This document shows, in pieces, positions 26,402 through 43,459 of a stretch of DNA of 46,019 nt. The notes under the pieces were generated by a model. That model searched no databases and was not told the DNA's origin. It saw only the letters and a list, made by a program, of their open reading frames with translations. The stretch is from NCBI GenBank assembly GCA_947177635.1, contig CAMWVQ010000015.1, positions 1 through 46,019 on the forward strand, read 5' to 3'. Source of the stretch: an uncultured Porphyromonadaceae bacterium (lineage in GTDB: Bacteria; Bacteroidota; Bacteroidia; Bacteroidales; Muribaculaceae). Both the position numbers and the translations under genes were made by a program. Numbering within the stretch: position 1 is the first letter of the stretch; the number at the start of each line of letters is the position of its first letter.

Positions 26402-28093
26402 TTATTTTGGTGCTCGCCATAGTTTTCCATCTGAAGATATAAGATTACTACTATTCATATCTTTAAGAATGTTGCTTACTAATTGGGTGTTCTGCTCCTT
26501 GGTGTTGCGGCTGGGGAGGGTGCCTTCAAGATATTCCATGATGGCATCGCGTTTGGCTCCGTCTGTTCCGGCATTCTGAATGTATTGCAGAATCATCTGC
26601 TTGATTTTGTCTCGTTCAAGCCCTTTGACTTTCGTATAGCCTGTGAGTTGCTTGGATGCTTTTGCTACGCCGAGGGAGATGGTGTAGTTGGGAGCTTCGC
26701 CTTCAATCAGTCCGCGTTTCAGCAGGTCTTGCGCGATTTCCTCATCTATGCGATGTCCTTTTTGTATGGCATCGAGAGAGATGCAATCGTGCAGGGTGAG
26801 GTTGGAGTTTTCTTTAAGGAGCTTGGTATAGCGTTCGTTGATGGTGTTGCCATAAATGCGAACTGCCACCTCCTTCTTTTCGTTGTCAATCTCATAATCG
26901 GGCATCGGGAAACGGCGTTCCATCTGATTGGTAAACATCTTCTTGATGCCACGGCTTACGGTGTCAATCATATTGAAATGCACCATCGCGCGACACAAGC
27001 ATGTGTTGCGGAAGAATCGCTGAGGGCCTTGCGTTTCCAGCGCATTCTCCAACGTGCCGGGAATGAACGATCCGCCGTTTGCATAGTAGAGGAATCCGGG
27101 ATTCTCCACCAAATTGATGCGCTGCTGGAGGGTATAATCTTGATGGGCGATGCAGTTATGTAGTGCCTCACGGATTGTGTAGTCATCATATTGCTTCATA
27201 GTGTCGGGAAACAGCGTTCCGCCCGGCATTTCGCGCAACGTCAGATTATGAATTTTGGCAAGAATCTCATCGACGGTCAGGATGAATGGCACGGAGAAAT
27301 GCTCGTAATCGACCACGTCTTTCTTCTCATCTCGCAATGTCCACGTAACTTCCACAACCGCCGGACGCAGTTTGCTGTCAGAAAACATCTTGCCGAGCAA
27401 AATGATGGCGGCACGGCGCAACTTGCCGTCAACCATAAGCTCGCACTTGTTCAGGAACTCTTCCGTTGACCATTTGTTTACCTCTTCCGCCGGAATACGG
27501 TTGTGCACCTTCTTGAACATCATCTTCGCTTTGGCGATAGCCACCTCGTCAAGGTCATCAATCGTGGCGTTCGGTACAATCTCCGCCGACCAATCAGGTT
27601 CGGGCGTTTGGTGCCTAATTTCATCTTGCTTTGACTGATTCAGCGGTTTAAGACTCTCGCCGTCACGACCGTAGGCAATACCTTTCCACTTCATCACGAT
27701 ATTGCGCGGCGAAGCCGGAATCTTGAACATAAGGACGCGCTTACCCTCAACCTCTACCGACACAATCTCGCGGAAAGTCTGCCCGTCGGTAGTATGTTGG
27801 GAAAAATCGTGTTTGAGCTTATTGAGCGCACCTTCGCCATCCTTGAACGAAGTACCGACAACCGCATGCTTCTTCTCATCATAGCCGAAAATCAGCCACG
27901 CGAACTCCAGCCCGCGCAAATTCGCCTCATTGCTCAACGCCGAGAAATACTTGCCCAAGTCATCGAAGTCGAAGCTATTCTCCGCCCTCTTAAACTCCAC
28001 CACCTCACTCTCAGTTCTAAGAATGAGGCTATTGAATATATTGATATCCTGTTCTTTCAAAGCATCTGAAGTGTTTATATCATTATTTGTCAT
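26402..28093 (-). CDS. AlbA_2/Schlafen-type ATP-binding protein
   Basis: A 563-residue protein of the widespread RNA-binding-domain / ATPase type (RecG-like HATPase_c_4 proteins). The N-terminal AlbA_2 (Schlafen) domain at about 25-150 has ESEVVEFKRA and the glutamate/lysine set of that fold. The middle region at about 280-420 has REALHNCIAHQDYT and the NPG turn in LVENPGFLYY, resembling the C-terminal ATPase module. The C terminus looks like winged helices. Such proteins often sit in restriction-modification and defence loci; their mechanism is not settled. It begins 12 bp behind abiH on the same strand and is the last gene of the hsdM series. Confidence 0.85.
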   Translation of the reverse strand: MTNNDINTSDALKEQDINIFNSLILRTESEVVEFKRAENSFDFDDLGKYFSALSNEANLRGLEFAWLIFGYDEKKHAVVGTSFKDGEGALNKLKHDFSQHTTDGQTFREIVSVEVEGKRVLMFKIPASPRNIVMKWKGIAYGRDGESLKPLNQSKQDEIRHQTPEPDWSAEIVPNATIDDLDEVAIAKAKMMFKKVHNRIPAEEVNKWSTEEFLNKCELMVDGKLRRAAIILLGKMFSDSKLRPAVVEVTWTLRDEKKDVVDYEHFSVPFILTVDEILAKIHNLTLREMPGGTLFPDTMKQYDDYTIREALHNCIAHQDYTLQQRINLVENPGFLYYANGGSFIPGTLENALETQGPQRFFRNTCLCRAMVHFNMIDTVSRGIKKMFTNQMERRFPMPDYEIDNEKKEVAVRIYGNTINERYTKLLKENSNLTLHDCISLDAIQKGHRIDEEIAQDLLKRGLIEGEAPNYTISLGVAKASKQLTGYTKVKGLERDKIKQMILQYIQNAGTDGAKRDAIMEYLEGTLPSRNTKEQNTQLVSNILKDMNSSNLISSDGKLWRAPK

Positions 28094-28105
28094 TTTACCT
28101 TTCTC

Positions 28106-29107
28106 TCACCAAGAATGCTTGTTATTTGAATTTCTCCTTCCAATAACTATTGGAGGTTGCGGTTTGAGACCCTCAAGAAATGAATTATAATTATTAGAGA
28201 CTGTTGAGTCCCATTCAATTTCCTTTACAGGAATAATTCTTAATTCAAGCCCATTGTTAAGTCCCTCTCGCGATAAACCCATTGCTCGCAAATTACGCTG
28301 TATATATTTGACGGAGTTTTTATCATAAGTTATAATGGTAAAGCGAGGTTTTGGTTGAGTAGAGATTTTTGAGGAAAGTTGCTTTAAGAATGGCTTAAAA
28401 TAACTTCCGTCAATCTGTCCAAACGACAATCCATAAACGATAATATCGTCTGCATTGATCAAATCATTTGCTAAGTTATGCGGTTCGATTTTATCACACT
28501 TAAACATAAAATCATAGTCTTGCAATAGGGTTAAATCCTCATTAAACCCTAAAACAATATTCTTATCTTCAAGGGAACCATGCATATACTTAATATCCGG
28601 TATTTCATTATCAGAAAACCCCGCAAAATGCTTTAATATATACGTTGGGTCGGTATAATTGAAAGTGTATATTGCGCTGAAATTTCCATTTTCCCTTATG
28701 GACTTAAGAATTTCTAAAGGTATAGTAATGTCAATATCGGCATCTCGTCTGTACGGATAAACGGCAGATAAATATTTCTGAAGCATCCATACTAATAAAT
28801 TATAGCTCTGTTCATCTTCACTGATTAACTCTGATGTAACAGGTTCCTTTTTATTTTTTACATAATTCAACAATTCACCCTCTATGTCAATCCATCTAAT
28901 ACGACCTAAATTATCAAGGTTATTTTGAACATAGGTATAAAAATGATTATGCAATGATTCGTTCTTAAATCTGCCTTCGGGTGGATTTCTGAAAGGCCAA
29001 AAACCTCCATCACCTCCGGCTCGAACATTTACAAGATTTTCATAGGATGTCCAAAATCCAAAGGCAAGGTCGAACCCATTACCAAGTATCAATAATTTCT
29101 TTCTCAT
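28106..29107 (-). CDS. abiH: AbiH family abortive-infection protein
   Basis: A 333-residue protein with the hallmark N terminus KLLILGNGFDLAFGFWTSYENLV (AbiH family). Two further conserved points follow, YTFNYTDPTYI and KYMHGS, then LGFNED. AbiH was first described as a lactococcal phage-abortive protein; the biochemical action is unknown. The gene is notably AT-rich compared with hsdR. It lies 126 bp behind the nucleotidase gene and 12 bp before the AlbA-type ATPase gene. The 126-bp gap shows no clear TAnnTTTG element, so read-through from upstream is likely. Confidence 0.88.
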   Translation of the reverse strand: MRKKLLILGNGFDLAFGFWTSYENLVNVRAGGDGGFWPFRNPPEGRFKNESLHNHFYTYVQNNLDNLGRIRWIDIEGELLNYVKNKKEPVTSELISEDEQSYNLLVWMLQKYLSAVYPYRRDADIDITIPLEILKSIRENGNFSAIYTFNYTDPTYILKHFAGFSDNEIPDIKYMHGSLEDKNIVLGFNEDLTLLQDYDFMFKCDKIEPHNLANDLINADDIIVYGLSFGQIDGSYFKPFLKQLSSKISTQPKPRFTIITYDKNSVKYIQRNLRAMGLSREGLNNGLELRIIPVKEIEWDSTVSNNYNSFLEGLKPQPPIVIGRRNSNNKHSW

Positions 29108-29233
29108 ATTTATAGCATGATTAAGGATACTATTTTAATATCATGGTCGGATGAACATGAGCCAACTCCATTATTTATAAGTAGGATTCTATTCATTATC
29201 AATTTTTTGAATGAAACATGTAAATTAATAATT

Positions 29234-30157
29234 TTAAGAATTTGCTATACCAAAAGGGATATGGACAGCTGGGACGTTCTTTAGATTTTTAAGGTGTGTC
29301 ATTTGATCATCGAAAAAGATATGTGGACGTATTATTTCTAATATTCTCGCCTTTTCGATTCCACCAAGAAAAAACGCCTCATCTACCTCTACACCCCAGT
29401 CCTTCAAAGACGTTATCACACGTTCGTGTGCAGGTGCATTTCGAGCTGTTACGATATATGTTTTAATTATACGATTATAAGTCGAATCAGACTTTCTCAT
29501 TAACTTCTCTCTCCTTTGGTAATATGAAATCTTACGTAGGAGCTTTCCGATAGGACCTAAATGTAACGGTTCATTTGCATGTTCATGCTCGTGAGTAAGA
29601 TAGCTTTCTAAGCCATCAGTCTTATAGACTTTCTCAGACGCATCATCAGCTAGTACGCCATCAAAGTCAAATGCGATTCTCAACTCTTGATCATTTTCAT
29701 CATCCTTTATCACCTCGTCATTAACGACACGTCCAGCCGCAAATCCAGCATTTAATGCTTCTATAACATCTTTCTGATTAGCAGATAGAAAAAGTGACGC
29801 ATTGAACCCGGGTAAATACTGACAGTTTGAATTACCGGATGTAAAGGACGCGCGTGATATATCTAATTTATAATGTTCGATGGATCGGAAGGCTCTTAGT
29901 CCGGTTTCAGGACTATTTCGGGACATCAGAATCACTTCAACCGGCTTATTGTCAGCAAGGGCTTTATTGAGAGACAGCATTCTTTTGATAAAAGGGAAGG
30001 CGACTCCCGGAGGGAAAGGGATATTGATATTCTTATTCTGATATGTCCTATACTTCTCCTCTCCTTGCGTTTTGAAGATTGCATCAGACTCCGTCAAGTC
30101 AAATAAAGCACTTGATGCAATTGCGATGACTAATTTGTTTTCTATTGGGAAAGCCAT
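29234..30157 (-). CDS. 5'-nucleotidase (cN-I-like, PF06189 type)
   Basis: A 307-residue HAD-related 5'-nucleotidase similar to cytosolic nucleotidase I. Visible landmarks are LVIAIASSALFDLTESD at the start, VEVILMSRNSPETGLRAF around 74-90, and the DFDGVLADD motif at 164-172 with nucleophile Asp164 and Asp166. FFDDQ follows near residue 287. Enzymes of this type dephosphorylate nucleoside monophosphates. It lies between hsdR (72 bp upstream) and abiH, an unusual place for a salvage enzyme, so a role in defence, such as lowering nucleotide pools, is possible but unproven. Confidence 0.85.
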   Translation of the reverse strand: MAFPIENKLVIAIASSALFDLTESDAIFKTQGEEKYRTYQNKNINIPFPPGVAFPFIKRMLSLNKALADNKPVEVILMSRNSPETGLRAFRSIEHYKLDISRASFTSGNSNCQYLPGFNASLFLSANQKDVIEALNAGFAAGRVVNDEVIKDDENDQELRIAFDFDGVLADDASEKVYKTDGLESYLTHEHEHANEPLHLGPIGKLLRKISYYQRREKLMRKSDSTYNRIIKTYIVTARNAPAHERVITSLKDWGVEVDEAFFLGGIEKARILEIIRPHIFFDDQMTHLKNLKNVPAVHIPFGIANS

Positions 30158-30229: not shown

Positions 30230-33200
30230 TTATCTTATCCCGCGGACTCGGGCATCATACAATTCGTTGAACCACATTTGCTTGAAGAGGGTGTTGACGC
30301 GGTCTTCTGTGAGTTTGTTGTACAATTCAAGTTTGGAATTGATGAACTCCAACAGTTCATTGTCAACTTCCTCGTCGAAGCGTTCACGTATATTGTCGCG
30401 GGAATTATCAGGATTGAAAAATTCGAGCAATTCTTCATTGTTTGTCAAGCGGTCTCGTAGACGCTGGAGGTCAACTTTGTCTTCCTCAGTTAGATCAACT
30501 CCATAGGTATCATTAAGGGTTTTGATGATAACTGATAGATATTCTTTATCCTCCTGAGGCTGGGCTGTAACTCGCCCACCTCCCATACCTTGTTCCTCGG
30601 AGTCATTGCTTTCGAGTGCAATCTTTTTGATGCCGTCAAATTTTAACTTGTAGCTGTCAAGGATGGTGCCGTCAAATATCTCACGTTTCTCCGCCTCGGT
30701 CATTTGAGAGTTCTCTATGCGTAGCTTCATAACCAATAGGCTTACAAGTTCATAGAGTTTAAGCAGTTCGGGGTCGTAGAACCGCTTAATCTGGCTCAGC
30801 AAATTGAACAGAGATTTATAACTTTGACAGTCTTTTCGGAACTCCAGATAAAGGTCTTTTGGATTGCGTTCAAGTCGCTTTGCGCGATCAACAATCCGGT
30901 CGAGAATGGGATATACTTTATCCTTATCCTCCTCCCAATTGTCGCCCCAACGAAGAGAAGTAAATTCATCAAGATCGTTGGCGGTAATGACGCCTTGATA
31001 GTTATCGTCGTATAGAATTTTGCTTTTTAGCTGAAGCAGTGAATCCGCATCGGTCTCATTTTCTTCCGGCATATAGTTTTTGCCATAGAAGCGCATAAAG
31101 TCTTCACGAAGGTCGTCCGGCTCGTTGACAAAGTCAAGAACCATTGTTGAAGTCTTCTTTTTACCGTATTTTCGGTTCAGTCGGCTCAGTGTCTGCACGG
31201 TAGATGTACCTCCAAGTTTCTTATCGACAAACATGGTGTGCATCAATGGCTCATCAAAGCCGGTCTGATACTTATTGGCAACAATGAGCAGACGGTATTG
31301 TGGTAATTTCAAAGCATCAGGGATGGATGTCTTGCCGGGCAGATTGTTCATTGACTGCTCGGTGTATTCCATGTCTCCATCTTTGACCGTTCCGGAGAAA
31401 GCTACCAGTGCCTTATAGGGGAGACGCATTTCCTGCATAATGCGGTCAAACTCTTGTTTGTAACACACTGCATGAAGTCGTGAACGGGTAACGAGCATAG
31501 CGCGAGCCTCGCCATCAATTTCCTTTGAGGTTTGCGAAGCAAAGTGTTCCACCATTATCCTGCTCTTACGTTCAATGGCTGTCGGACTGATGTCAACATA
31601 GCTGCCGAGCAATGCCATAGTCTTCTTTCGGTCATGTTCATTGTCGGGCACATCATTGTTACGCATCAATTTGTAATATCGTTTGAACGACATTACATTT
31701 TCCAATGGATTGAGAATGAAACCCTCGTTGATGGCATCTTCCATTGAATAGAGGTCGAAAGGCTCCTTTGTGCCATATTCACGTTCACAGAAGATTTCGA
31801 TTGTCTTTGGCTTAGGGGTTGCAGTGAAAGCAAAGAATGAGATGTTACTATGGGGCCCGGTTGATGCAAGATCTGCTTCAATGCGGTGGGCCAACTTGTC
31901 CACTTCATCGCCTTCTATAGCTGCAGCGGCTTCATCGGCTGCCTCCGCCTCTTCAAAAGACAGTGCCTTACGCATCTGGCGTGCTGACTGACCTGATTGG
32001 CTCGAATGAGCTTCATCAATGATTACAGCAAACTTACGGTCTTTATACTTTTTTATGTCCTCGGCTATTACCGGAAACTTTTGGAGAGTCGTGACAATAA
32101 TGCGACGACGCTGTTCAATAGCGGTTTTCAGGTCTTGCGATGTACATTTGTCATCAATGTAGCACACTTCTCCGGCTGTATGTTCAAATTGCTTGAAGTT
32201 GCGTTGCATCTGTGTGTCGAGTGCCACACGGTCATTTACCACGATCACGCTGTCAAACAGCGCATTCTCGTCAGTGTAATGCTGATGCAGACTGCTCAGA
32301 CGATATGCTAGCCATGTGATAGTATGGCTTTTGCCTGAACCTGCGGAATGCTGAATCAAGTAGTTGTGTCCTGCACCTCGTTCAGTAATGTCTACGAGTA
32401 ATTTTTTCACTGCACGACGCTGATGCCAGCGAGGAAAGATAAGTGACGTGGATTCCTTCTCCCTAAGCTGCCCAGATTCTTTGTCGTAAATCTTTTTCTT
32501 TTCAGTGTGCAAATTTACATAATGGCTCACCATGTCTATGACTGAATCACGACGCAGCACGTCTTTCCACAGATAATTTGTGCGATAATCCTCACTCACA
32601 ACACCTATGTTGCCATATGTTTTATTGTATGGCAGGAAATATGTATCTTCACCATCGAGCTTGGTCGTCATAAACACCTGTTCTGTGCCAACAGCAAAGT
32701 GCACTAAGCAGCGTTTGAATGCCAAAAGCTTCTCCCCGGCGACCTCTCTGTCCTTCATATATTGCATTACGGCATTATGATGCGTCTGCCCAGTAAGCTC
32801 GTTTTTCAATTCGAGTGTCATTATAGGGAGACCATTGAGGAAAATGCCCATGTCAATGCTAAGATCCGGATTTTTGGTAGAGTAATGTACTTGTCGCATT
32901 ACTCCAAGACGATTCAGTGAGTATAGTGTAAGATGTTCGGGGGTCTTGTCATTTACCGGACGGGGATACATCATTGTGAACTTCGGACCTTCCATTGTAG
33001 ATACCTCTACTTCGCGAAGTACTTTGATTATGCCATGGTGATCAATCTCTTGGCTCACACGTTGAGCTAACGTCATCATAGCTTTTTCTTTGGTGCCACA
33101 ACGCTTCACAAGTAGATTCCACTGCTTGGGCTGAGTGCTGCTCACAAACGCGGCTATCTCTTCCGGCACGAGGGCGAGCTTGGCATTAAACATGGTGTTG

Positions 33201-33352
33201 GGCAGTGACCGATACTCATATTGAGGAGTGCCATAATGCGCTTCGGGTTCAGCCGCCATATTTCCGGATGAAGTTACAAGCGGCTTTTGTTCTTGCGATG
33301 TCAGGAACTGCTCGATGCGTTCCTCCATATATCTTTCGTCAGGTTTCGACAT
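30230..33352 (-). CDS. hsdR: Type I restriction endonuclease subunit R
   Basis: The translocase-nuclease subunit of a type I restriction-modification complex. The 1040 residues contain an N-terminal nuclease core of PD-(D/E)XK type (Asp167 and Glu181-Leu182-Lys183 in IMTLELKNELTG). The SF2 motor motifs follow: HSAGSGKSHT (Walker A, about 333-342), IIDEAHSSQSG (about 443-453), FTATPKPKT, and late helicase motifs with QTGFDEP and QTLSRLNR. The C-terminal part is helical and HsdM-binding in the family. Its length is normal. It starts 6 bp behind hsdS, so hsdM-hsdS-hsdR form one transcription unit. Confidence 0.95.
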   Translation of the reverse strand: MSKPDERYMEERIEQFLTSQEQKPLVTSSGNMAAEPEAHYGTPQYEYRSLPNTMFNAKLALVPEEIAAFVSSTQPKQWNLLVKRCGTKEKAMMTLAQRVSQEIDHHGIIKVLREVEVSTMEGPKFTMMYPRPVNDKTPEHLTLYSLNRLGVMRQVHYSTKNPDLSIDMGIFLNGLPIMTLELKNELTGQTHHNAVMQYMKDREVAGEKLLAFKRCLVHFAVGTEQVFMTTKLDGEDTYFLPYNKTYGNIGVVSEDYRTNYLWKDVLRRDSVIDMVSHYVNLHTEKKKIYDKESGQLREKESTSLIFPRWHQRRAVKKLLVDITERGAGHNYLIQHSAGSGKSHTITWLAYRLSSLHQHYTDENALFDSVIVVNDRVALDTQMQRNFKQFEHTAGEVCYIDDKCTSQDLKTAIEQRRRIIVTTLQKFPVIAEDIKKYKDRKFAVIIDEAHSSQSGQSARQMRKALSFEEAEAADEAAAAIEGDEVDKLAHRIEADLASTGPHSNISFFAFTATPKPKTIEIFCEREYGTKEPFDLYSMEDAINEGFILNPLENVMSFKRYYKLMRNNDVPDNEHDRKKTMALLGSYVDISPTAIERKSRIMVEHFASQTSKEIDGEARAMLVTRSRLHAVCYKQEFDRIMQEMRLPYKALVAFSGTVKDGDMEYTEQSMNNLPGKTSIPDALKLPQYRLLIVANKYQTGFDEPLMHTMFVDKKLGGTSTVQTLSRLNRKYGKKKTSTMVLDFVNEPDDLREDFMRFYGKNYMPEENETDADSLLQLKSKILYDDNYQGVITANDLDEFTSLRWGDNWEEDKDKVYPILDRIVDRAKRLERNPKDLYLEFRKDCQSYKSLFNLLSQIKRFYDPELLKLYELVSLLVMKLRIENSQMTEAEKREIFDGTILDSYKLKFDGIKKIALESNDSEEQGMGGGRVTAQPQEDKEYLSVIIKTLNDTYGVDLTEEDKVDLQRLRDRLTNNEELLEFFNPDNSRDNIRERFDEEVDNELLEFINSKLELYNKLTEDRVNTLFKQMWFNELYDARVRGIR

Positions 33353-33358
33353 AAGGGT

Positions 33359-34714
33359 TTAGTTTTGAAGTTCCCAATCACGCACGTCAACCTTTCCCGT
33401 AACGGCTTCGGAAATTACAGCTTTTTTATATTCAGCCAATTCTTCGAGTTGTTTTTCCAACTCATTAATCAGCGTATCAATCTTCTCGGTCTTTTCATCA
33501 AGAAACTCAGCAATGGCTTGCTGCTCGGAAAAAGAAGGCAAAGGAATAGTGAAATTTTTCAATTGCTCAAAGTTAAGACCTTCTCTATTACCCCCTGTTT
33601 GGTACATAGCAATTTGCTCCTGACCTATATTTGAATTTATTACATAACATAGGAACATATTGTTAATAGTATCAGGTAGGGGCCTGATAATGCATACATG
33701 CTGATTAACATTAGCATTCTCGGGTAGAGAGTATACGCAACATCTACCAATTGAGGCACCTGTAATATTTAATAAAATATCACCTTGATACACTCTTGTG
33801 TTGCACATTGTTTCATCAATTTGTTTGGAAATATATTTCGGGTCGTCTAAATGTAGACCATTGGGATATACATTCTGACTCCTAATAAATAATATCCCCT
33901 CATCAGAATATACCTCGGAGCCGCCTTTTGGTGTTACACCACTTCCGATTTTTGATGTAATATACTTTAATTTTGTCGTTTCCCAATGTTCTGGGATATC
34001 TCCAAGCCAATCGATTCCGGAGGGACGGAGGGGTGCATTAGGATTGAGGCCGCGAGTGACGGTCTCGGTGATAAGTGATGTGCGATAAGAGCGTAAATCT
34101 TCCACCTGTTTCTGCTTCTCCGCAATCAGCTCATCGATCTTCCCAGTTACAACATCCAAATATGCCGCAATCGCAACCTGCTCTATTAAAGGAGGGACTA
34201 TAATCCTGATATTTCCCAACTTTAATCTACTGATTCTTTTCATAGTTGCACCACTACTCAAACCTGATGCATTAAACCAAAAATCATGAGAATTCAGTTG
34301 GTACATCATATAATGTTTGTTGAAAACATTATTCTTTGGACGGTATATCACATTATCCACACACGTGACAATTTTATAACCCAGTTCTGGAACTTCGCAG
34401 GTTCGCGCTATAGGCTCATTTAATCTCGAAATTAACAAATCTCCGGGTTTTACTTCGATACAATTAAGGTCATCAAATGTATTGTGGGATATAAATCCTT
34501 GGCCTTGTTCCTTATAGACACCTACACCCACATTGCCAGATGTTAAATAACGAACTCCCGAATCTGTAATAAAAGGTGATTCAATCCAATCCCCGTCTAT
34601 AAAATCTGTGTCGGGATTATCTACAGTGTATTTTAATGGTATGGTATTCCAATGACTCGGTATTTTATCGAGCCAGTCTATGCCAGAGGATTTATATTCT
34701 GGATATGCCTTCAT
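33359..34714 (-). CDS. hsdS: Type I restriction-modification specificity subunit S
   Basis: HsdS recognises the bipartite DNA target of the type I complex. The 451 residues show two target-recognition halves, each beginning with a conserved phrase: SGIDWLDKIPSHW (about 10-22) and SGIDWLGDIPEHW (about 233-245). Each half ends in a coiled-coil-like conserved region (LDVVTGKIDELIAEKQKQVEDL; LDEKTEKIDTLINELEKQLEEL). The target cannot be read from sequence. Its ATG overlaps the hsdM stop codon (TAATG), indicating coupled translation. No second hsdS or inverted recombination partner lies in the window. Confidence 0.95.
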   Translation of the reverse strand: MKAYPEYKSSGIDWLDKIPSHWNTIPLKYTVDNPDTDFIDGDWIESPFITDSGVRYLTSGNVGVGVYKEQGQGFISHNTFDDLNCIEVKPGDLLISRLNEPIARTCEVPELGYKIVTCVDNVIYRPKNNVFNKHYMMYQLNSHDFWFNASGLSSGATMKRISRLKLGNIRIIVPPLIEQVAIAAYLDVVTGKIDELIAEKQKQVEDLRSYRTSLITETVTRGLNPNAPLRPSGIDWLGDIPEHWETTKLKYITSKIGSGVTPKGGSEVYSDEGILFIRSQNVYPNGLHLDDPKYISKQIDETMCNTRVYQGDILLNITGASIGRCCVYSLPENANVNQHVCIIRPLPDTINNMFLCYVINSNIGQEQIAMYQTGGNREGLNFEQLKNFTIPLPSFSEQQAIAEFLDEKTEKIDTLINELEKQLEELAEYKKAVISEAVTGKVDVRDWELQN

Positions 34715-36438
34715 TAGTTGAATAGTTGGGAAAGAAGTGATTGGATAGACTTCTCGCTGGAGCGAATATCGGAGGCTATTTCAGTGGATGGACGCAGAGC
34801 CTCATGCTTGTAGAAATAGCGTGAGAAGTTTATTTCGTAACTTATACGGGTCTGGGATATGTCAACCCATGATTCGGGGTCGATGTGCGGGAGCACCTCT
34901 TTAGCGAAATGCTCTTTCCAGTCGGTGCCAATGGCAATTGTTTCAGTATCCTTCTTCACAATTTCTTTCTTGCCTTTCTTCTCAATCACGTTTCCTTTGG
35001 CATCGCGCTTGGGCTGACAGATAGTTAGTTGATAGCTACCAAAGAAGTTATTCGGATAGATTCGGCAGAAGTCATTCTCCTCAAAGTCAAGGTAGAGTTT
35101 GAGAATCTGCTCGACATCGGCTTCAGTAATGTCCTTACGCTTATTGCCAAGACTTTTCTTTGCCTGATGGAATATGCTTGAGGCATCGATAAGTTGAACT
35201 TTACCTTTTCGCTCCTTTGACTTATTATTGGTGAGGAACCATAGGTAAGTCTGAATACCTACGTTATAGAATAGGTCAGTGGGGAGAGCAACGATTGCTT
35301 CAAGCCAGTCATTTTCAATAATCCATTTGCGGATATTACTTTCGCCACTCCCGGCTCCGCCGGTAAAGAGAGGAGAACCATTAGTGACGACACCTATACG
35401 TGCGCCATCCGGTTCCATCTTGCTGATCATATGTTGGAGGAAAAGCAACTGACCATCGGAGATTTTCGGAGTCCCGGCCGAGAACCGACCATTGGGGTCA
35501 AGGCTTTCGTTCAGCACAAACGACTGGTCTTTCTTCCATGTTACACCATAGGGCGGATTTGCCATGATGTAATGGAATCGATTGGATACAAATTGATCGT
35601 TGGAGAGCGAGTTACCTAAGCGTATATTTCGGGCATCCTCACCGGTTATGAGTGCCTCGGATTTAGCAATGGCGTATGATTGCTCGTTAAGTTCCTGTCC
35701 GAAAGTTTGGATTGTGGGCTGTGTGTCTGGGTCACAAAACTCGTGTATGAACTGCTTGCCGAGGTTAACCATGCCTCCGGTGCCACAAGTGGGGTCAAAG
35801 ATGGTGCGAATGATTCCACGGCGGTTGAGATCATCCTTGTCGGGAGTGAAAAGTATAGCTGACATAAGACGGATTACGTCGCGTGGAGTGAAGTGTTCAC
35901 CGGCAGTTTCATTGCTCTGCTCGTTTGAGATACGTATAAGTTCCTCAAACACAGATCCCATATCGTGATTGTCGTACTTCTCCGGCGAAAAATCAAGAGC
36001 CGATACAGCTTGTATCATCTGATACAAGAGTCCATTGCGAGTAAGACGTGCTACGACTTTATCAAACTGAAAGTTACGTAAAATTTCCTTAACCTCCGAA
36101 GAAAAGCCGTTAAGATAGTTATCGAAATTGATGCCGATGTTCTTAGCATCGTCAATAAGAGAAGTAAGAGTATGGCGAGAAGTGTTGTAGAACTTCAAAC
36201 CACCGGCGGCTTTCCGCAGAATGGGGTCAAGTTTATCATCCGCAACCTTATCTTTGAAGTTTTCGTAAGCGGCGCGAACTTTTGTATTGACCGGAGCAAG
36301 AATGCAGTCAATGCGACGCACTACCACGAAAGGGAGCATTACCTCTCCAATTTCATTCTTCTTGAACGTATCGCGAAGCACATCATCGGTGATGCGCCAC
36401 ACAAATCCTATGTCGGGTCTCTTATTATTCTGTTCCAT
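34714..36438 (-). CDS. hsdM: Type I restriction-modification DNA methyltransferase subunit M
   Basis: The SAM-dependent N6-adenine methyltransferase subunit. From the ATG at 36438 it has 574 residues (MEQNNKRPDIGFVW...). A frame extension to 36471 would run into the promoter and is rejected. Helical N-terminal HsdM_N precedes the SAM site FDPTCGTGGM (about 220-230) and the catalytic NPPYGVTW (about 300). A preserved C-terminal segment follows. It is the first gene of the restriction series and is driven by a TAACTTTG promoter (36469-36476) with an upstream TGCAG-N5-CTGCA operator (36488-36502), both shared in arrangement with the AAA ATPase gene. Confidence 0.95.
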   Translation of the reverse strand: MEQNNKRPDIGFVWRITDDVLRDTFKKNEIGEVMLPFVVVRRIDCILAPVNTKVRAAYENFKDKVADDKLDPILRKAAGGLKFYNTSRHTLTSLIDDAKNIGINFDNYLNGFSSEVKEILRNFQFDKVVARLTRNGLLYQMIQAVSALDFSPEKYDNHDMGSVFEELIRISNEQSNETAGEHFTPRDVIRLMSAILFTPDKDDLNRRGIIRTIFDPTCGTGGMVNLGKQFIHEFCDPDTQPTIQTFGQELNEQSYAIAKSEALITGEDARNIRLGNSLSNDQFVSNRFHYIMANPPYGVTWKKDQSFVLNESLDPNGRFSAGTPKISDGQLLFLQHMISKMEPDGARIGVVTNGSPLFTGGAGSGESNIRKWIIENDWLEAIVALPTDLFYNVGIQTYLWFLTNNKSKERKGKVQLIDASSIFHQAKKSLGNKRKDITEADVEQILKLYLDFEENDFCRIYPNNFFGSYQLTICQPKRDAKGNVIEKKGKKEIVKKDTETIAIGTDWKEHFAKEVLPHIDPESWVDISQTRISYEINFSRYFYKHEALRPSTEIASDIRSSEKSIQSLLSQLFN

Positions 36439-36468
36439 CTTTGTGGAGTTGTTTTTTGTTTTACGATA

Positions 36469-36502
36469 CAAAGTTAATTACGATCTGTGCAGTCTTTCTG
36501 CA
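36469..36502 (-). promoter_or_regulatory. Promoter-operator cassette 1 (hsdM)
   Basis: On the minus strand the -7 element TAACTTTG lies at 36469-36476. After exactly 11 bases comes the inverted repeat TGCAGTCTTTCTGCA at 36488-36502, covering the place of the -33 element. The same spacing occurs in cassettes 2 and 3. The flanks ATCTG and CAGAT lengthen the inverted repeat, with one base offset. Confidence 0.75.
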
Positions 36503-36512
36503 TCAGATTATG

Positions 36513-37550
36513 CTAGTTTAGCAAACGGTTTCGTATTGACTTGTCTTTTTCGGTATCGCCTATTATTTTTTTCGTCGGATCCTTGACACCTCCTATTATT
36601 TGTTCACGAAGAGTTGAACATCCTTTACGTATTTTAGCAATATCTTTATACGAAATAGCTAAGACTGTATCACCAGATGTATTCCGCGTATCATGTAGTA
36701 CGGAGGTCAATGTGACTTCATTTTCATCATGAACAATTGTTTTATTTTGAGGGTGAAATAACTGAAAGCCTTTATCGCAAACAAGTACGAAATAATTGCT
36801 TATTAACTTACGTGGATGAATCGTATTGTTAAACACAAATTCTAACTGTACCTCGTAATCGCGAATAGTCCTTAAATATGCCTTTAACATTCCATTAAGT
36901 TGGTCTGCTTTCTCTGGACTAATCTTTTGAGGCATAGGAGTGACAATCAGCAAATGGAAAACAGTACACAAATTTTTGGGCAAGATTGCATTTAGAATCA
37001 TTTTAACATTCTCAAATCCAATCAATTTACCTTCCACATCGTTTTGAAAGAGATAATTGTCTGTAATAATCAAACTATTGCTTGGAGGAAGCGTTTGTCC
37101 GTTTAACATGTTTGACCAACCGTCGGATATTCCAGAAAGGTTGTCTCCTTTATCAAAATTTCTTTTGAATGATAATTGCAGAATATTATCATTCATTTCG
37201 GTTTCGCTCTGGATTATAACTCCATATTTTTCGGACAATACATCAGCCTCTTTCTTAGATATGTCAAAGAAAAACATCGCACGAGGCTTTTCAATTACAA
37301 TAGATTGGTCCTCTTTTAATGCCTTGAAATAATCTTTTAGAGCAATAATGGAAACATCATTTCGAGATAATTGACTTAATTCGCTATCCTCATCTGACAA
37401 TATTTCATCTAATTCTGGGTCAGTTAGATTTACACACAAAACCGCATGATTATTAAAAATATGATGAAGATTAGGGTATGAATCATCACATATCAGAATC
37501 TCTTCCAATGCGTCTTTTCCAATATATATGTGCAGCTTAGTTTCAGCCAT
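36513..37550 (-). CDS. Unrecognised partner protein of the AAA ATPase
   Basis: I do not recognise this 345-residue protein. It has no signal peptide or membrane helix. The N-terminal half is acidic (LTDPELDEILSDEDSELSQL). The second half has alternating beta/alpha segments (NSLIITDNYLFQND, VFHLLIVTPMP) and the phrase IHPRKLISNYFVLVCDKGFQLF, which reminds me of degenerate phospholipase-D-like folds; this is a weak resemblance. The gene overlaps the ATPase gene by 8 bp, so the two are made together and probably act together. It ends 36 bp before the hsdM promoter. No known two-gene defence system is confidently matched. Confidence 0.7.
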   Translation of the reverse strand: MAETKLHIYIGKDALEEILICDDSYPNLHHIFNNHAVLCVNLTDPELDEILSDEDSELSQLSRNDVSIIALKDYFKALKEDQSIVIEKPRAMFFFDISKKEADVLSEKYGVIIQSETEMNDNILQLSFKRNFDKGDNLSGISDGWSNMLNGQTLPPSNSLIITDNYLFQNDVEGKLIGFENVKMILNAILPKNLCTVFHLLIVTPMPQKISPEKADQLNGMLKAYLRTIRDYEVQLEFVFNNTIHPRKLISNYFVLVCDKGFQLFHPQNKTIVHDENEVTLTSVLHDTRNTSGDTVLAISYKDIAKIRKGCSTLREQIIGGVKDPTKKIIGDTEKDKSIRNRLLN

Positions 37551-39204
37551 TTATCTTACGCCTTTCGAGTTTAGATATAGTAAGTGCAGCCGATGATGCC
37601 TCATCAAAGAAGCCTTCGCCAAATTTATTTTCAAAACGACCAGAGGGAAGGTATTTCATATCGTAAGGCATTCCTTCTGCTGGGAAATAATATACCTTGA
37701 ATGGATTTTGCTTTGCAAGTTCTTCCTCGCTTTCAATATTCATTTCGGCAACGAGTACCTGTGTACGACGAATGAAATACTCGGAATGAGTTTCAATCAA
37801 GAACTTATAGCTATCGTCCATCGCAACTTCTGAAATCAGATCAGCGAGTTTGCTTTGCAAACGAGGATGTAGGTTTTGTTCAGGTTCTTCTATAATAATG
37901 AATTTCGGAATAAAGCTTTTGCCACCATCCTTTCCGTGATGTCCTTCTTCAAACATGATTGTTGCCAAACTGAGCAATAAAACCATAAGCTGATTTGTAC
38001 CCATACCCATATCAGCAAGATTCATCGTACCATTCTGGGTGATAACTTTGAATGTATAACCTTCTCCTCCGATAGATTCAATCTCATAGTCTGAACCAAT
38101 TCCAAACTCATTCATCCATTTACGGATAAAGATATCAGTAAATGAACCGCGGACTACACCTCTTCGTGCATATTCATGAATCGCCTGAGCCATAAAGTCA
38201 TTCTTATCGTCAATCGTATAGAGCATTTTTTGAGATACTCCATGAGCTTGAATATAATAAACATGAGGCCTTCTTAGTTCTGATTCGAGAGCGGATGCAC
38301 TTTCAAGTATAAGAGATCTCTTATCTGCTAAAACTTGTTCGTTAGCTCGATCATCTTCCGACCCATTCCATACTTCTTCTGAAGAATCGGTTTCATTTTC
38401 TACCTCATCATCTGTGAGTCCGGTCACACTTACTGCTCTAGCTCCAATTGTTGAAGTATAAGCTTCAATATTTTCTATATACCCAGGGAGTGCTCCACTT
38501 GTAATGCGACGTTCACCTTTTACTCCAAGGTAATTATTTATGTCTGTTTCGGCTGAAGTAGATTCATCTACCTCATGTGTGTCATGAGCGAGTGCATTCC
38601 GAACTTTCAATAATTTTTCAAGCTCCTGATTAGCCATAGCAGCCTCAAATGCGTCATCCTCCTGTGCGAGTTTTCTGCGTAACTCTTCTATGCGCGACTG
38701 AATCTTGTCAAACTCTGGAGAACCATTCCCGTTGATTTGCTCAAAATCTACACGCATTCTTCTTGTGTTGAAATTAAATGTGTAGAGAATATGCCTCTTT
38801 GCATCTTTTACTTCAATCAATGCCACCTTTGCGACGGGGAGGTCTTCGCCATTTGCATCAGGTTCAACAACTACATGAATTGGGAAATTATCAATCTGTA
38901 GAGTAAACTCCATTTGTTTAACTTTAGATCCTGTAAATAGAGCGCGCTCAAATGTGCCAAGATTTAGGTCGTGGAATTCATTAGCGTCGAAACGGAATTG
39001 AGGCGTTTCAAAACCATTGTCGAAGATATTAAAAGCAGATACTTTTTTTCGTAGAGATCGAATATTATCGAATACAAGAAGTAATGCTTTTTGTAAAGTA
39101 GATTTACCGGCATTGTTACCTCCGACAAGTATGGTGATGTCGCCGAACTTGAATTCGGGGAAATCGGCGAAGCGGCGGAAGTTTTTGAAGCTGATTGATT
39201 TCAT
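37543..39204 (-). CDS. AAA family ATPase (RecF/OLD-like, without visible TOPRIM)
   Basis: A 553-residue SMC/RecF-like ATPase. It starts MKSISFKNFRRF and has Walker A at 28-36 (GGNNAGKST). A long charged middle follows, with a coiled-coil-like stretch around 160-215. The signature-like MGMGTNQLMVLLLSLAT lies near 400, Walker B in FIIIEEPEQNLHPRLQ near 435, and the H-loop in IETHSEYFIRR near 470. The C terminus (GRFENKFGEGFFDE) resembles AAA_15/DUF3696-type ATPases. No TOPRIM nuclease motif is visible, so an effector is expected from the overlapping downstream gene. Cassettes 2 and 3 precede it; promoter 2 would give an almost leaderless message. Confidence 0.88.
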   Translation of the reverse strand: MKSISFKNFRRFADFPEFKFGDITILVGGNNAGKSTLQKALLLVFDNIRSLRKKVSAFNIFDNGFETPQFRFDANEFHDLNLGTFERALFTGSKVKQMEFTLQIDNFPIHVVVEPDANGEDLPVAKVALIEVKDAKRHILYTFNFNTRRMRVDFEQINGNGSPEFDKIQSRIEELRRKLAQEDDAFEAAMANQELEKLLKVRNALAHDTHEVDESTSAETDINNYLGVKGERRITSGALPGYIENIEAYTSTIGARAVSVTGLTDDEVENETDSSEEVWNGSEDDRANEQVLADKRSLILESASALESELRRPHVYYIQAHGVSQKMLYTIDDKNDFMAQAIHEYARRGVVRGSFTDIFIRKWMNEFGIGSDYEIESIGGEGYTFKVITQNGTMNLADMGMGTNQLMVLLLSLATIMFEEGHHGKDGGKSFIPKFIIIEEPEQNLHPRLQSKLADLISEVAMDDSYKFLIETHSEYFIRRTQVLVAEMNIESEEELAKQNPFKVYYFPAEGMPYDMKYLPSGRFENKFGEGFFDEASSAALTISKLERRKING

Positions 39205-39208
39205 GCTG

Positions 39209-39242
39209 CAAAGGTATTATCTATTTGTGCAGTGTAGCTGCA
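39209..39242 (-). promoter_or_regulatory. Promoter-operator cassette 2 (AAA ATPase, proximal)
   Basis: The -7 element TACCTTTG (39209-39216) is followed upstream after 11 bases by TGCAGTGTAGCTGCA (39228-39242). The expected transcription start falls at or within a few bases of the ATG at 39202-39204, so its message would be leaderless or nearly so. The WYL gene ends inside this cassette. Confidence 0.75.
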
Positions 39243-40375
39243 TCGTTAAAAATTACTTTATTTGAGTTGGCAGAATGTTTCGTTGAACGGCTGACATTTC
39301 TTTGAACACCGCAAAGGTATGAACTATCAGTGCAGTCATTCTGCACGGAATAATATTTCTGATAAGTATCTTTGATTTTCTTAGCTATATTATTCCGAAG
39401 AGATTCTGGTGCTAATACTTCTACGTCACTACCAAACGAGAGAAGGATTGACTCCAACTCTTTATTTGGAATAACATCAAGAGTTATAATTCCGGCGTCA
39501 GTATCTTTGATTTTTTGAGAACCATGAATAGGTTTTGCCTTAATATATGGGAATCTATTTTGAGAAAATCGAAGAATGATATTCTGTATTGTACCCTCCG
39601 CAGGAAAGCTGACACCAATAATATCTTCGAAATAATCATCGAAATCTTCAATAAGAGTATTTTCAATGAATGTGACATTCGCTTGCTCAATAGATATTAT
39701 TCGATCAAGGGCTACATTGGTTATACTCTTGAACTCATCATTATTTAATCCGATAAGGAACCATCTGTTATTATATTGCTTAATATAATATGGATGAATT
39801 ATCCAATCGAAGGATTTTTTATTGAATGTGGTATATTTTATGTTTAGTGGGGTCTTATTAAGGATAGCATTGAATAATGGGGTGATATGTTCTATCCCGT
39901 CCGCATAGACTATTCCATCAAGGCCTATTACTGAACGCCCTGCGCTCTTCAGATGAAATTTATCCTCAAGATTAGTAATCATTGAATCAATCCATTCAAA
40001 TTGAGGCAGCCCCTTGAAACGACTGAGCATTAACATCGTCTCTCTAAGTTGAGCAATTTCTTCATCTGTAATGGGTTGATTATTTATAGTGTATTCCGGG
40101 TTTTCATATCGGTAATAAACCCTGCGGCCATCCTTAACTCTATCAATCAACGCACCCCATCCGGCTTCACTCTCCATAAAATCAATGTCGACAAGAACTT
40201 GTCGCCGACTTATCCCGGGATTAAGTGGGTCGGAATATCTGCTGTCTCCAGTAAAGTCATACAACGCATCATTACACGCCGAGATAAGGTCCTCAATATA
40301 GAACCTTCGAGCAAAGTTACTGAAACACTTGTCAAGTGCTTGGTAACGTATTAGTGCATGCTTATTTGTTGCCAA
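39221..40375 (-). CDS. WYL-domain transcriptional regulator
   Basis: A 384-residue protein of the HTH-WYL class (BrxR/CapW-like) that often controls phage-defence loci. The N terminus (about 1-95) looks like a winged-helix DNA-binding part, with ISRRQVLVDIDFMESEAGWGALI. The WYL domain is at about 150-220, with IKYTTFNKKSFDWIIHPYYIKQYNNRWFLIGLN, and the C-terminal WCX-like region ends near residue 340. The last 40 residues (from VQNDCTD) are encoded by two promoter-operator copies and look like an accidental extension. It lies 16 bp behind the XRE gene and is probably co-transcribed. It is the best candidate to bind the TGCAG-N5-CTGCA operators, but binding is inferred. Confidence 0.85.
   Translation of the reverse strand: MATNKHALIRYQALDKCFSNFARRFYIEDLISACNDALYDFTGDSRYSDPLNPGISRRQVLVDIDFMESEAGWGALIDRVKDGRRVYYRYENPEYTINNQPITDEEIAQLRETMLMLSRFKGLPQFEWIDSMITNLEDKFHLKSAGRSVIGLDGIVYADGIEHITPLFNAILNKTPLNIKYTTFNKKSFDWIIHPYYIKQYNNRWFLIGLNNDEFKSITNVALDRIISIEQANVTFIENTLIEDFDDYFEDIIGVSFPAEGTIQNIILRFSQNRFPYIKAKPIHGSQKIKDTDAGIITLDVIPNKELESILLSFGSDVEVLAPESLRNNIAKKIKDTYQKYYSVQNDCTDSSYLCGVQRNVSRSTKHSANSNKVIFNDAATLHK
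39312..39345 (-). promoter_or_regulatory. Promoter-operator cassette 3 (AAA ATPase, distal)
   Basis: TACCTTTG at 39312-39319, 11 bases, then TGCAGTCATTCTGCA at 39331-39345. It lies inside the 3' end of the WYL reading frame and about 100 bp upstream of the ATPase start. It is a near duplicate of cassette 2 and would give a leadered message. Confidence 0.7.
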
Positions 40376-40391
40376 ACTATTTTGAAAGACT

Positions 40392-40604
40392 TTATTCAGA
40401 AAATATGGGTTCGTTAAGTAAATCGCGTACTCGTACGTTAAGATGTTCTGCTATTGAGAACAAAGTTTCCAATCCCGGCTGAGCCGTATTGGTACACCAT
40501 TTGGAGACAGTCGCTGGATCTTTTCCTAATTGTTCTGCCAACCATTTATTGGTTTTCTTTTTCTCAACTAATACGAGTTTTATCCTATTTAGGTCACGTT
40601 CCAT
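40392..40604 (-). CDS. XRE-family helix-turn-helix regulator
   Basis: A 70-residue protein that is almost entirely a Cro/C1-type HTH: NRIKLVLVEKKKTNKWLAEQLGKDPATVSKWCTNTAQPGLETLFSIAEHLNVRVRDLL. The recognition helix lies in DPATVSKWCTN. Proteins of this size act as dimeric repressors. It is the first gene of an XRE > WYL series and has a TAAATTTG promoter (40627-40634) on the minus strand. A divergent promoter for the GHKL protein lies 44 bp away. The XRE protein could control this divergent pair; no operator is assigned to it. Confidence 0.9.
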   Translation of the reverse strand: MERDLNRIKLVLVEKKKTNKWLAEQLGKDPATVSKWCTNTAQPGLETLFSIAEHLNVRVRDLLNEPIFSE

Positions 40605-40626
40605 ATCTTCAAAATTGAATTTGACG

Positions 40627-40634
40627 CAAATTTA
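40627..40634 (-). promoter_or_regulatory. Promoter -7 element of the XRE-WYL genes
   Basis: TAAATTTG on the minus strand matches TAnnTTTG and lies 23 bp before the ATG at 40604. Confidence 0.6.
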
Positions 40635-40677
40635 CTGAATTTTTCCGAACTTTCATAAAATATCAGGAAATTTTTTG

Positions 40678-40685
40678 TAACTTTG
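40678..40685 (+). promoter_or_regulatory. Promoter -7 element of the GHKL/PD-(D/E)XK gene
   Basis: TAACTTTG on the plus strand lies 73 bp before the ATG at 40758. The leader holds a direct repeat TTTATAGAAG (near 40693 and 40727) around the element AGTGTAATCTGCACT, which is only loosely similar to the TGCAG-N5-CTGCA operator. Confidence 0.6.
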
Positions 40686-40757
40686 CATTGTATTTATAGA
40701 AGATGTGAGTGTAATCTGCACTTCTTTTATAGAAGTTAAACTTAAATTCTAAATAAG

Positions 40758-42629
40758 ATGGAAGTTAACGTTAATCAGGCGATAAAGATATTCTTCTCGA
40801 AATCATCATTTGAGATGATATATATGGAAGCATTTGCGAATGCTTTAGATGCTAATGCGACTGAGTTCAATGTATCTGTTGATCTGGACGATTACTCCAA
40901 TTTACAGAATTTAAGGATTATGATTGAAGATAATGGGGAAGGTTTTACTGATAAGCGTTATTCAAAATTCTCCAAATTATTAGATGTCGAAGAAAAGACG
41001 CACAAAGGGCTGGGAAGACTGGTATATCTATGTTATTTTGATAGAGTTAATATAACTAGCTATTACGACAAAGGGAAGAAACGGACATTTGAGTTTACAA
41101 ATGATTTTGATGGTAAATCAGATATCGTTAAATCGTCATCTTGTAAAAAAAGCGGATCGACATTTGTTCTTTGTGGGTTTAATGGAGATAAGCTTAGTAA
41201 AAATATTAATATCAAAAGTACGTATATTAAACGAGTTATTCTTGAAAACTTTATAATGCGTTTCTATGAAGCAAAAATTAATAAGAAGAATATAACCGTA
41301 AACATACGTTCCACTATCAGCGGAAAGACGGATACAGAGAGCTTTGATTGCTCGGCACTTCCAAACTTTAAGATAGAGCCAATTGAAGGCGCAATTGACT
41401 TGTTTGATTCGATGGAAGTGTATTATCATATCTCTGATGCATATGACAACATATTCAATGATGGACGTAATACTTTTATCACGGCTCTATCCATTGACGA
41501 TCGTTGTTTCCCAGTTGACTTATTATCAGGATCGCGTATGCCTGATAAATATAACATGATCTTCTTATTAAGATCTTCTTCCTTACAGGGGACTACAGAT
41601 GGCTCACGTCAATCAATTAAAATGGCAGAAACAACGCAAAGGGCACTTATTAGTCTTTTTAAGGCGGCTGTTTTCCATATTATTACTAGAGAGGTGCCTG
41701 AAATCGCCGAATCTAATAAGAAGCAATATAACTATATTCAGGAAAGATTCCCTCATTTGATAGGCATGATAGATGAGCAGTCTATTGGATATGTACCTCA
41801 TCATGAGACAATAAAACAAGCGCAAGATAAATTTTTCAAAACAGAACGAGAGTTATTGGGCGCGTCTGAATTAAACGATGAACAGCTTGAAAAATCAATT
41901 GAATTTTCAAGTAGAACACTTGCGGCATATATTCTCTATCGTCAAAAATTGATCGAAAAAATGCTGACACTTGACAAGTCGGCTTTGGAAGAGGATTTAC
42001 ATAACTTATTAGCTCCTCGTTTCAAAGCATTTTCTGGAGATGATTTTGAAAAGGACGCGTACATTAATAATCTATGGGTTCTTGATGACAAGTTTATGAC
42101 TTATGAACATGTCTTGAGTGAGGCAGACATGGTAAAGGTTATTGGGCATCTTAACCCGATATCAGGCAATAATGGTGATAATGATAGACCGGATATAACC
42201 ATTTTCTTTTCTAGAGACCCAGAAGCAGATGGAGAAAAGTTTGATATGGTGATTGTTGAATTAAAAAGATTAGGTCTTTCTCCTGAAATGAATTCAATCG
42301 TTGAAATACAATTAGATAAAAGGACACAACTTTTATCCAAGCATTATGGGAATCGAATTCAACGAGCTTGGTATTATGGCATTGTTGATATGACCGATGA
42401 CTATAGAATGCATCTTAAGAATAATGAATATAAGCCATTGTTCTCTCATGGCAATATTTATTATAAGGTAAAACCTGTATATCGTGATTTGAATGATGAT
42501 ATAGGAGTAATTCAGCATTCATATATATTGGATTATAAATCTATAGTTGAAGATGCAAATGCTAGGAACTCTGCATTTTTAAGGATTCTCAAAGATAAAT
42601 TTTGCCATTTAAGCACTCCTCCTTTCTGA
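40758..42629 (+). CDS. GHKL ATPase fused to a PD-(D/E)XK nuclease-like domain
   Basis: A 623-residue protein. The N terminus is a Bergerat-fold ATPase: the N-box EAFANALDANA (Glu24, Asn28, Asp31), the G1 motif EDNGEGF (57-63) and the G2 motif HKGLGR (82-87). The middle (about 130-430) is helical and transducer-like. The C terminus contains RPDITIFF with Pro478-Asp479, then, 22 residues later, VIVELKR with Glu501 and Lys503, the PD-(D/E)XK pattern, and further QLDKRTQLL. This suggests ATP-gated DNA or RNA cleavage. It is alone on the plus strand, divergent from XRE. It is not one of the well-known GHKL families I can name. The C-terminal call is from motif spacing only. Confidence 0.75.
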   Translation: MEVNVNQAIKIFFSKSSFEMIYMEAFANALDANATEFNVSVDLDDYSNLQNLRIMIEDNGEGFTDKRYSKFSKLLDVEEKTHKGLGRLVYLCYFDRVNITSYYDKGKKRTFEFTNDFDGKSDIVKSSSCKKSGSTFVLCGFNGDKLSKNINIKSTYIKRVILENFIMRFYEAKINKKNITVNIRSTISGKTDTESFDCSALPNFKIEPIEGAIDLFDSMEVYYHISDAYDNIFNDGRNTFITALSIDDRCFPVDLLSGSRMPDKYNMIFLLRSSSLQGTTDGSRQSIKMAETTQRALISLFKAAVFHIITREVPEIAESNKKQYNYIQERFPHLIGMIDEQSIGYVPHHETIKQAQDKFFKTERELLGASELNDEQLEKSIEFSSRTLAAYILYRQKLIEKMLTLDKSALEEDLHNLLAPRFKAFSGDDFEKDAYINNLWVLDDKFMTYEHVLSEADMVKVIGHLNPISGNNGDNDRPDITIFFSRDPEADGEKFDMVIVELKRLGLSPEMNSIVEIQLDKRTQLLSKHYGNRIQRAWYYGIVDMTDDYRMHLKNNEYKPLFSHGNIYYKVKPVYRDLNDDIGVIQHSYILDYKSIVEDANARNSAFLRILKDKFCHLSTPPF

Positions 42630-43440: not shown

Positions 43441-43459
43441 AAAGTGAGTGTATCAGGGT

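Follow-up and report, generated by a model that had tools for sequence, protein, structure and literature searches.

Control of bacterial defence islands by WYL-domain proteins is already established, and BrxR shows that a single island may carry two or more WYL boxes (PMC9122601). The subject here is a 46,019-bp stretch of DNA from an uncultured Porphyromonadaceae bacterium (contig CAMWVQ010000015.1 of assembly GCA_947177635.1; hereafter the window), in which a WYL regulator gene adjoins defence genes and promoter palindromes, as in WYL defence regulators generally. Three copies of a 34-bp cassette, each an inverted repeat (IR) set before a -7 box, stand in front of an ATPase gene and a type I restriction gene. 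The best explanation, with a probability of roughly 0.6, is that the adjacent WYL protein binds all three segments, that each would form part of a sigma-ABfr promoter, and that the genes behind them make up a small regulon.

The closest described systems each share part of this arrangement. BrxR of Acinetobacter and of E. fergusonii pEFER has the same winged helix-turn-helix (wHTH), WYL and WCX layout, lies beside phage-defence genes, and is described with IRs of 5-bp spacer and two R-boxes per island (PMC9122601, PMC9122589). The pEFER protein is reported to repress, and its R-BOX1 lies between its own promoter and brxR, whereas the sites in the window follow the WYL gene and keep one rigid spacing to the -7 box; in sequence the window protein is more remote. 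CapW likewise regulates a defence operon through a palindrome of about 20 bp, yet it is reported as a strong repressor whose site overlaps the -10 box (PMC9122588). DriD binds as a WYL dimer at a constant distance from the -10 element, over a poor -35 (PMC12340889, a preprint); it controls DNA-damage genes in Caulobacter, and activation and sensing of single-stranded DNA (ssDNA) are shown for DriD and are proposed here by analogy. PafBC is a WYL activator that works by sigma adaptation, inserting between sigma-4 and promoter DNA (PMC11804915), but it is a mycobacterial heterodimer that is reported to contact the promoter near -24 via PafB only (PMC12340889). SiwR, an activator, uses a 19-bp palindrome that lies between the WYL gene and its target and spans -10 to -35 (PMC10693628), although it is mycobacterial and its targets are DinB-like genes. 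RptR serves a type I restriction island as its dedicated regulator, but is described as a small repressor acting on TAGCTA repeats, and the abstract of its description mentions no WYL domain (PMC12255303).

The original prediction described three 34-bp segments of the form TGCAG-N5-CTGCA, 11 bases, TAnnTTTG, and all three are found on the minus strand where it placed them:

Cassette 1, 36469..36502, minus strand: IR at 36488-36502 (TGCAGAAAGACTGCA), 11 bp, then a -7 box at 36469-36476 (TAACTTTG).
Cassette 2, 39209..39242, minus strand: IR at 39228-39242 (TGCAGCTACACTGCA), 11 bp, then a -7 box at 39209-39216 (TACCTTTG).
Cassette 3, 39312..39345, minus strand: IR at 39331-39345 (TGCAGAATGACTGCA), 11 bp, then a -7 box at 39312-39319 (TACCTTTG).

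The TAnnTTTG -7 box of the Bacteroidota sigma-ABfr promoter is present at every site. The claim that identical spacing would be unlikely by chance also stands, since the composite occurs three times in the window and in 0 of 200 dinucleotide shuffles. The 15-bp IR by itself is ordinary, with three found against 1.35 expected when one mismatch is allowed, and three or more in 19 of 100 shuffles. In the bacterium's own genome (2.64 Mb) there are six exact IRs, three of them inside the window, and an IR followed by a -7 box with a spacer of 6-16 is confined to the three window cassettes.

The cassettes sit close to the genes that they precede. From the -7 box of cassette 1 to the first ATG of hsdM (36438) there are 30 bases, and counterparts 5' of hsdM exist in the related loci L123 and L046, and in L122 with one -7 mismatch. 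Cassette 2 overlaps the WYL stop codon and cassette 3 falls within the final codons of the WYL open reading frame (ORF; 39221-40375); these two are not in a clean intergenic gap, which corrects the earlier picture. In five relatives (L037, L039, L042, L083, L123) the -7 box itself supplies the TAA that ends the WYL gene; the window box reads TACC, and the WYL ORF therefore runs on. The tandem pair is also present in L122. The -7 box of cassette 2 ends 4 bases before the ATPase ATG, a distance identical in L122 and L123, and the predicted mRNA is therefore leaderless. With the -7 box taken as -12 to -5 (PMC9723704), the predicted start for cassette 2 is the A of the ATPase ATG, near 39204, and those for cassettes 1 and 3 would fall near 36464 and 39307. 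Leaderless mRNAs are reported as uncommon, at 5.5% in F. psychrophilum, and leaders shorter than 10 nt as 3.7% in B. thetaiotaomicron.

Comparison with WYL homologues, which were gathered by protein similarity alone and blind to the cassette, carries the main argument. A WYL match occurs in at least 389 of 397 family genomes. Sampling took all 56 loci from named species genomes, 37 stretches of family genomes and the window, 94 sources in total; 87 loci (1.14 Mb) were kept after five without a WYL match at E 1e-20 and two duplicates were dropped, and they share ancestry, so that counts over loci are not independent events. TGCA-N7-TGCA occurs 95 times in the 87 loci, compared with a mean of 26.6 and a maximum of 37 in shuffles. 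Behind 37 of these 95, TAnnTTTG stands at spacing 11, and each remaining spacing in the range 0-60 has three at most; 20 shuffled sets of the 87 loci contain no composite at spacing 11. Over spacings 4-20, exactly 11 accounts for 37 of 42 matches. Allowing one -7 mismatch gives 73 matches at spacing 11, 11 at 8 and 9 at 10; each of the six further spacings tested has only 0-3. Near-stop sites were taken from -120 to +400 of the WYL stop, which left one window site and one L122 site outside the range.

What changes between loci is the half-site; the distance is kept. Among 45 loci with one strict -7 box at -60 to +150 of the WYL stop, 13 carry TGCA-N7-TGCA at 11. A different palindrome, with five or more of its 7 arm pairs matched, stands at the same spacing in 25 of the remaining 32, and in at most seven at any other spacing from 2 to 44. 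The half-sites form uneven groups, namely TGCA, TGAAG/CTTCA, GTTCA/TGAAC and TTTTGAAG/GCAAAA-like. By eye, the recognition helices of the GTTCA group are clearly distinct, whereas the TGCA and TGAAG groups are less sharply separated and overlap in sequence. A looser cassette test, run on 81 loci with a complete WYL ORF of at least 300 aa, is passed by 64 loci at spacing 11 and by 8 to 28 at the other 25 spacings from 5 to 30. Only spacing 11 stands out, and the half-sites change at a constant distance, which together are the strongest evidence that the WYL protein reads the site while touching the promoter machinery. Recurrence of the IR in homologous loci, the check set by the original prediction, is confirmed, as the cassette recurs beside WYL genes across Bacteroidota. 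The exact form TGCAG-N5-CTGCA, spacer 6-16, TAnnTTTG occurs 15 times in the 397 family genomes, ten times at spacing 11. All ten are in WYL loci: eight have a WYL gene in the fetched flanks, and the other two are second copies, one in the window at 2.7 kb from the WYL gene and one in G164 at 3.4 kb. The five matches at other spacings have no WYL homologue in the fetched flanks.

The regulator and the genes behind the cassettes are as follows:

39221..40375, minus strand: WYL regulator of 384 aa (wHTH, WYL, WCX), the proposed cassette binder (Pfam WYL 3.8e-08, WCX 1.8e-12; predicted structure).
40392..40604, minus strand: small XRE-type protein of 70 aa just 5' of the WYL gene, named by eye.
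37543..39204, minus strand: AAA_15/AriA-like ATPase, the first gene after cassettes 2 and 3 (Pfam, PADLOC).
36513..37550, minus strand: ATPase partner with weak MIT_C (phospholipase D-like) similarity, below the Pfam cut-off.
34714..36438, minus strand: hsdM, type I methyltransferase subunit, first ATG at 36438.
33359..34714, minus strand: hsdS, specificity subunit.
30230..33352, minus strand: hsdR, restriction subunit.
26402..30157, minus strand: 5'-nucleotidase, AbiH and Schlafen-AlbA genes, of uncertain regulon membership.

The type I restriction-modification system is complete, with HsdM, HsdS and HsdR all identified. NsnB and AriA are the best PADLOC matches of the ATPase; the partner has no PADLOC match, and its homologues are detectable between ATPase and hsdM in L122, L123, L052 and L037. 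In six of ten composite loci both ATPase and hsdM have a cassette, by a loose test (one -7 mismatch, 5/7 pairs, 330 bp upstream) in which the L037 match at -211 resembles chance.

One regulon had been proposed to cover the ATPase pair and the whole restriction-nucleotidase-AbiH series. The joining of the ATPase pair with the hsd genes is supported: the cassette tracks WYL homologues with fixed geometry and group-wise half-sites, and its recurrence before both modules extends to distant relatives. The inclusion of nucleotidase and AbiH is unsupported. From hsdM through hsdS, hsdR, the nucleotidase and AbiH to the Schlafen gene, all run in one direction, and no TAnnTTTG lies on the coding strand in the gaps after hsdR (hsdR-nucleotidase-AbiH), so that read-through into nucleotidase and AbiH is possible. 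In the related loci compared, several of which end too early, nucleotidase and AbiH are unmatched and the Schlafen gene occurs only in L131. The regulon is therefore drawn as ATPase, partner and hsdMSR. One WYL regulator probably controls both antiviral gene sets.

The position of the operator bears on how it might work. That the palindrome occupies the place of the -33 element is borne out by the larger cassette set, which has no -33 signal. The three sites do lack a -33 box, but the window alone gives no contrast: 0 of its 25 TAnnTTTG boxes in 26000-43500 (cassettes included) have TTG at 19-21 bp. Only the larger set provides one. There, TTG at 19-21 is found in 0 of 22 cassettes and in 59 of 184 generic -7 boxes 5' of ORFs (23, 32 and 4 at spacings 19, 20 and 21; Fisher p 0.0007), a generic set that includes chance boxes and some non-TGCA WYL sites. 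One of the 37 cassettes has TTG at 18. A -33 box is reported for B. fragilis and, in the same source, as not identified in F. johnsoniae (PMC7366714).

Sequence profiles and the predicted model place the window WYL protein nearer the activators DriD and PafBC than the repressors BrxR and CapW. A phmmer search with the single WYL sequence matched no solved structure. The WYL profile reached PafBC and DriD at 1.3e-07 to 1.5e-05 (PafC chain, 0.13), one BrxR entry at 2.9e-04, and CapW and another BrxR entry at 0.05-0.23; DriD is the best sequence-profile neighbour after PafBC. The model has a mean predicted local distance difference test score (pLDDT) of 81.4 and a predicted template modelling score (pTM) of 0.51, and its N-terminal helices and wing can be seen by eye in the DSSP line. 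Its best fold match is DriD, and in one comparison PafBC tied with BrxR and CapW behind DriD. Full-length structural matches speak against a close likeness, with root-mean-square deviations (rmsd) of 12-16 A and low TM-scores, and the fold comparison therefore rests on the WYL-WCX part. A viral scan gave no relative of the WYL protein.

In the mechanism that we propose, a WYL dimer would bind directly to the palindrome, whose centre would lie about 31 bp 5' of the predicted start, at the -33 position, with the -7 box following after exactly 11 bp. Cassettes 2 and 3 would drive the ATPase and its partner, and cassette 1 would drive hsdM-hsdS-hsdR. A nucleic-acid ligand, for example ssDNA from infection or DNA damage, would change the dimer, as for DriD and PafBC. 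The changed dimer would then keep RNA polymerase in place at these promoters, which lack a -33 box, so that both modules would come on together. We lean to activation because the -33 box is absent and the protein appears nearer DriD and PafBC, and we put activation at about even odds. A site at constant distance from the -10/-7 element over a poor -35/-33, as in DriD and PafBC, is present in the cassettes. Constant spacing was itself dropped as a mark of activation, since palindromes also stand 11-13 bp before recA and metal-efflux-like genes.

Several results weigh against this reading, some touching the binder and some the sign. The looser cassette test is failed by 17 of the 81 loci, among which degenerate cassettes can be found in L082 and L060 (by eye) and in L052 and L088. 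Relaxing the motif loses the tie to WYL: loose TGCA-N7-TGCA at spacing 11 occurs at least 17 times in family genomes, and of the 17 listed, five (G035, G176 twice, G183 twice) are in known WYL loci; among the other 12, the loci L160, L161 and L176 have no WYL gene in their flanks. One or both cassettes were not found in four of the ten composite loci (L127, L070, L072, L037). GGCA-N7-TGCC stands at spacing 11 before recA and before a gene for a small protein in the genome of the bacterium itself (contig C72 of G000, 4167-4200, locus L224; C61, 7883-7916, locus L223), with no WYL gene in the flanks. The best palindrome (at least 5 of 7 pairs) falls at 11 or 12 in 7 of 24 recA loci with a -7 box, eleven more recA loci from a pattern search have spacing 12, and metal-efflux-like genes have palindromes at 12-13. 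The regulators at these recA-like and metal sites may be repressors, so that similar geometry may serve repression; geometry alone is decisive neither for WYL nor for the sign. The -7 boxes are near consensus (C in 30 of 37 and A in 31 of 37 after TTTG), which also fits repressed promoters, and Acinetobacter BrxR is reported to bind over the -35 element, from -51 to -27 (PMC9122589).

These points bear most heavily on a reading that keeps the same regulon and reverses its sign, with the WYL dimer acting as a BrxR/CapW-type repressor that blocks RNA polymerase at -33 and is freed by an infection ligand. It is a real possibility, if one that falls clearly short of even odds. The WYL regulators already described at defence loci are repressors, namely BrxR, with two R-boxes in one island (PMC9122601), and CapW, at promoters of the cyclic-oligonucleotide-based antiphage signalling system (CBASS) (PMC9122588); the -7 boxes are strong, and the recA palindrome at 11-12 bp may be a repressor site of the same geometry. 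The reported sites differ in place, however: those of CapW overlap the -10 box and R-BOX1 of BrxR is found downstream of it, whereas the cassettes keep to one rigid position. They also lack a -33 box, and sequence and fold are nearer DriD and PafBC. Nor does the WYL gene's own promoter carry a cassette in the window: no spacing-11 palindrome cassette lies within 600 bp 5' of the gene, where a site would be expected for a BrxR/CapW-type repressor. Some relatives do have a cassette 5' of WYL (L140, L084, L072).

Could the palindrome instead be the site of a host DNA-damage (SOS) regulator, not of the island's WYL protein? A palindrome of drifting sequence (GGCA-N7-TGCC, TGTGCA-N7-TGCACA and others) stands 11-12 bp 5' of the -7 box in recA promoters of this Bacteroidales family (L163-L165, L170, L172, L173, L175, L177-L180; L190-L194, L196, L198), a kinship that gives the idea its footing. 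Yet the half-site of the bacterium's own recA is GGCA/TGCC, not TGCAG/CTGCA, and within its genome the TGCAG-N5-CTGCA cassette is found only in the island, which makes an SOS regulator very improbable. LexA orthologue groups are reported absent in Bacteroidales, and the Bacteroidetes LexA SOS box is given as GGA-N5-TCC or CTAA-N5-TTAG (PMC8565304); a LexA box was set aside, as the cassette sequences match neither form. The genome holds a second WYL protein, and this core WYL protein may be one candidate for the recA palindrome, an S24 protein another.

The original prediction had named the XRE protein along with WYL as a possible binder. XRE proteins commonly bind palindromes, and 11 of the 81 loci (window included) have an XRE homologue, which adjoins WYL in several; ten of the 11 have the cassette. 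The search covered the whole locus, not only the WYL neighbourhood. However, 54 of the 70 loci without a detected XRE homologue still have the cassette, so that XRE is not needed for it, and binding by the small protein 5' of WYL, rather than by WYL, was set aside as most unlikely. Chance or a composition effect, for which only the commonness of the IR in the window speaks, has virtually no probability given the 200 shuffles without the composite and the 37 matches at one spacing over 87 loci.

Further observations concern the cassette and its relatives. In L041 a second partial WYL 3' end (residues 316-356) stands at a second cassette (10782-10904), which suggests that the cassette was copied along with the end of the WYL gene; a similar fragment occurs in L231. 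In several metagenome-assembled genomes the cassette faces away from WYL, toward an ORF 160-350 bases on: L053, L055, L057, L085 (two cassettes about 110 bp apart), and also L054, L058, L069 and L079. The L085 ORF is a reverse transcriptase by Pfam, and most other away-facing ORFs begin alike; the gap has room for a non-coding RNA, possibly that of a retron or defence-associated reverse transcriptase (DRT) system. A small protein of about 80-90 aa repeatedly lies behind the recA-like palindrome (L223 on the own C61 contig at spacing 11, L162, L168, L169, L174, L176, L187). TGCAAC-N3-GTTGCA-like palindromes stand 12-13 bp 5' of TAnnTTTG in L093, L095, L097, L098, L100, L101, L102, L108, L118 and others, before genes that, judged by eye from the start of the sequence, encode heavy-metal P-type ATPase-like and His-rich proteins. 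They make up a further operator class with nearly fixed spacing.

Elsewhere in the window, a HATPase-domain gene (40758-42629, plus strand) diverges from XRE-WYL and has a -7 box at 40678 without a cassette. A tyrosine recombinase gene (XerC/D-like; 44265-45494, minus strand) near the window end suggests a mobile island, and a weakly similar recombinase gene (23%) lies 5' of WYL in L122. Short imperfect repeats (aagtagtaaaat) occur within 26250-26401, 3' of the Schlafen-AlbA gene.

Our searches, which cover open-licence papers only, found no description of a Bacteroidota WYL operator, of the 11-bp grammar or of drifting half-sites. A broader picture, which we offer tentatively and at a little under even odds, is of defence promoters without a -33 box throughout the Bacteroidota, each served by a WYL activator of the DriD/PafBC kind at one invariant position. 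Half-sites would drift by lineage around a preserved 11-bp geometry, with the cassette copied as a unit before separate modules, namely the ATPase pair, type I restriction, methyltransferase-HATPase and reverse transcriptase systems. A nucleic-acid signal of infection or damage would turn these modules on in step, and the core WYL protein may use the same grammar at Bacteroidales recA. Little is known of how defence islands are switched. With a rigid operator-promoter grammar, WYL targets can be found by sequence and co-acting defence genes predicted. The grammar also allows a clean test of the sign, on or off, of WYL control over defence, and the varied half-sites beside paralogous WYL proteins offer a ready data set from which to read a recognition code.

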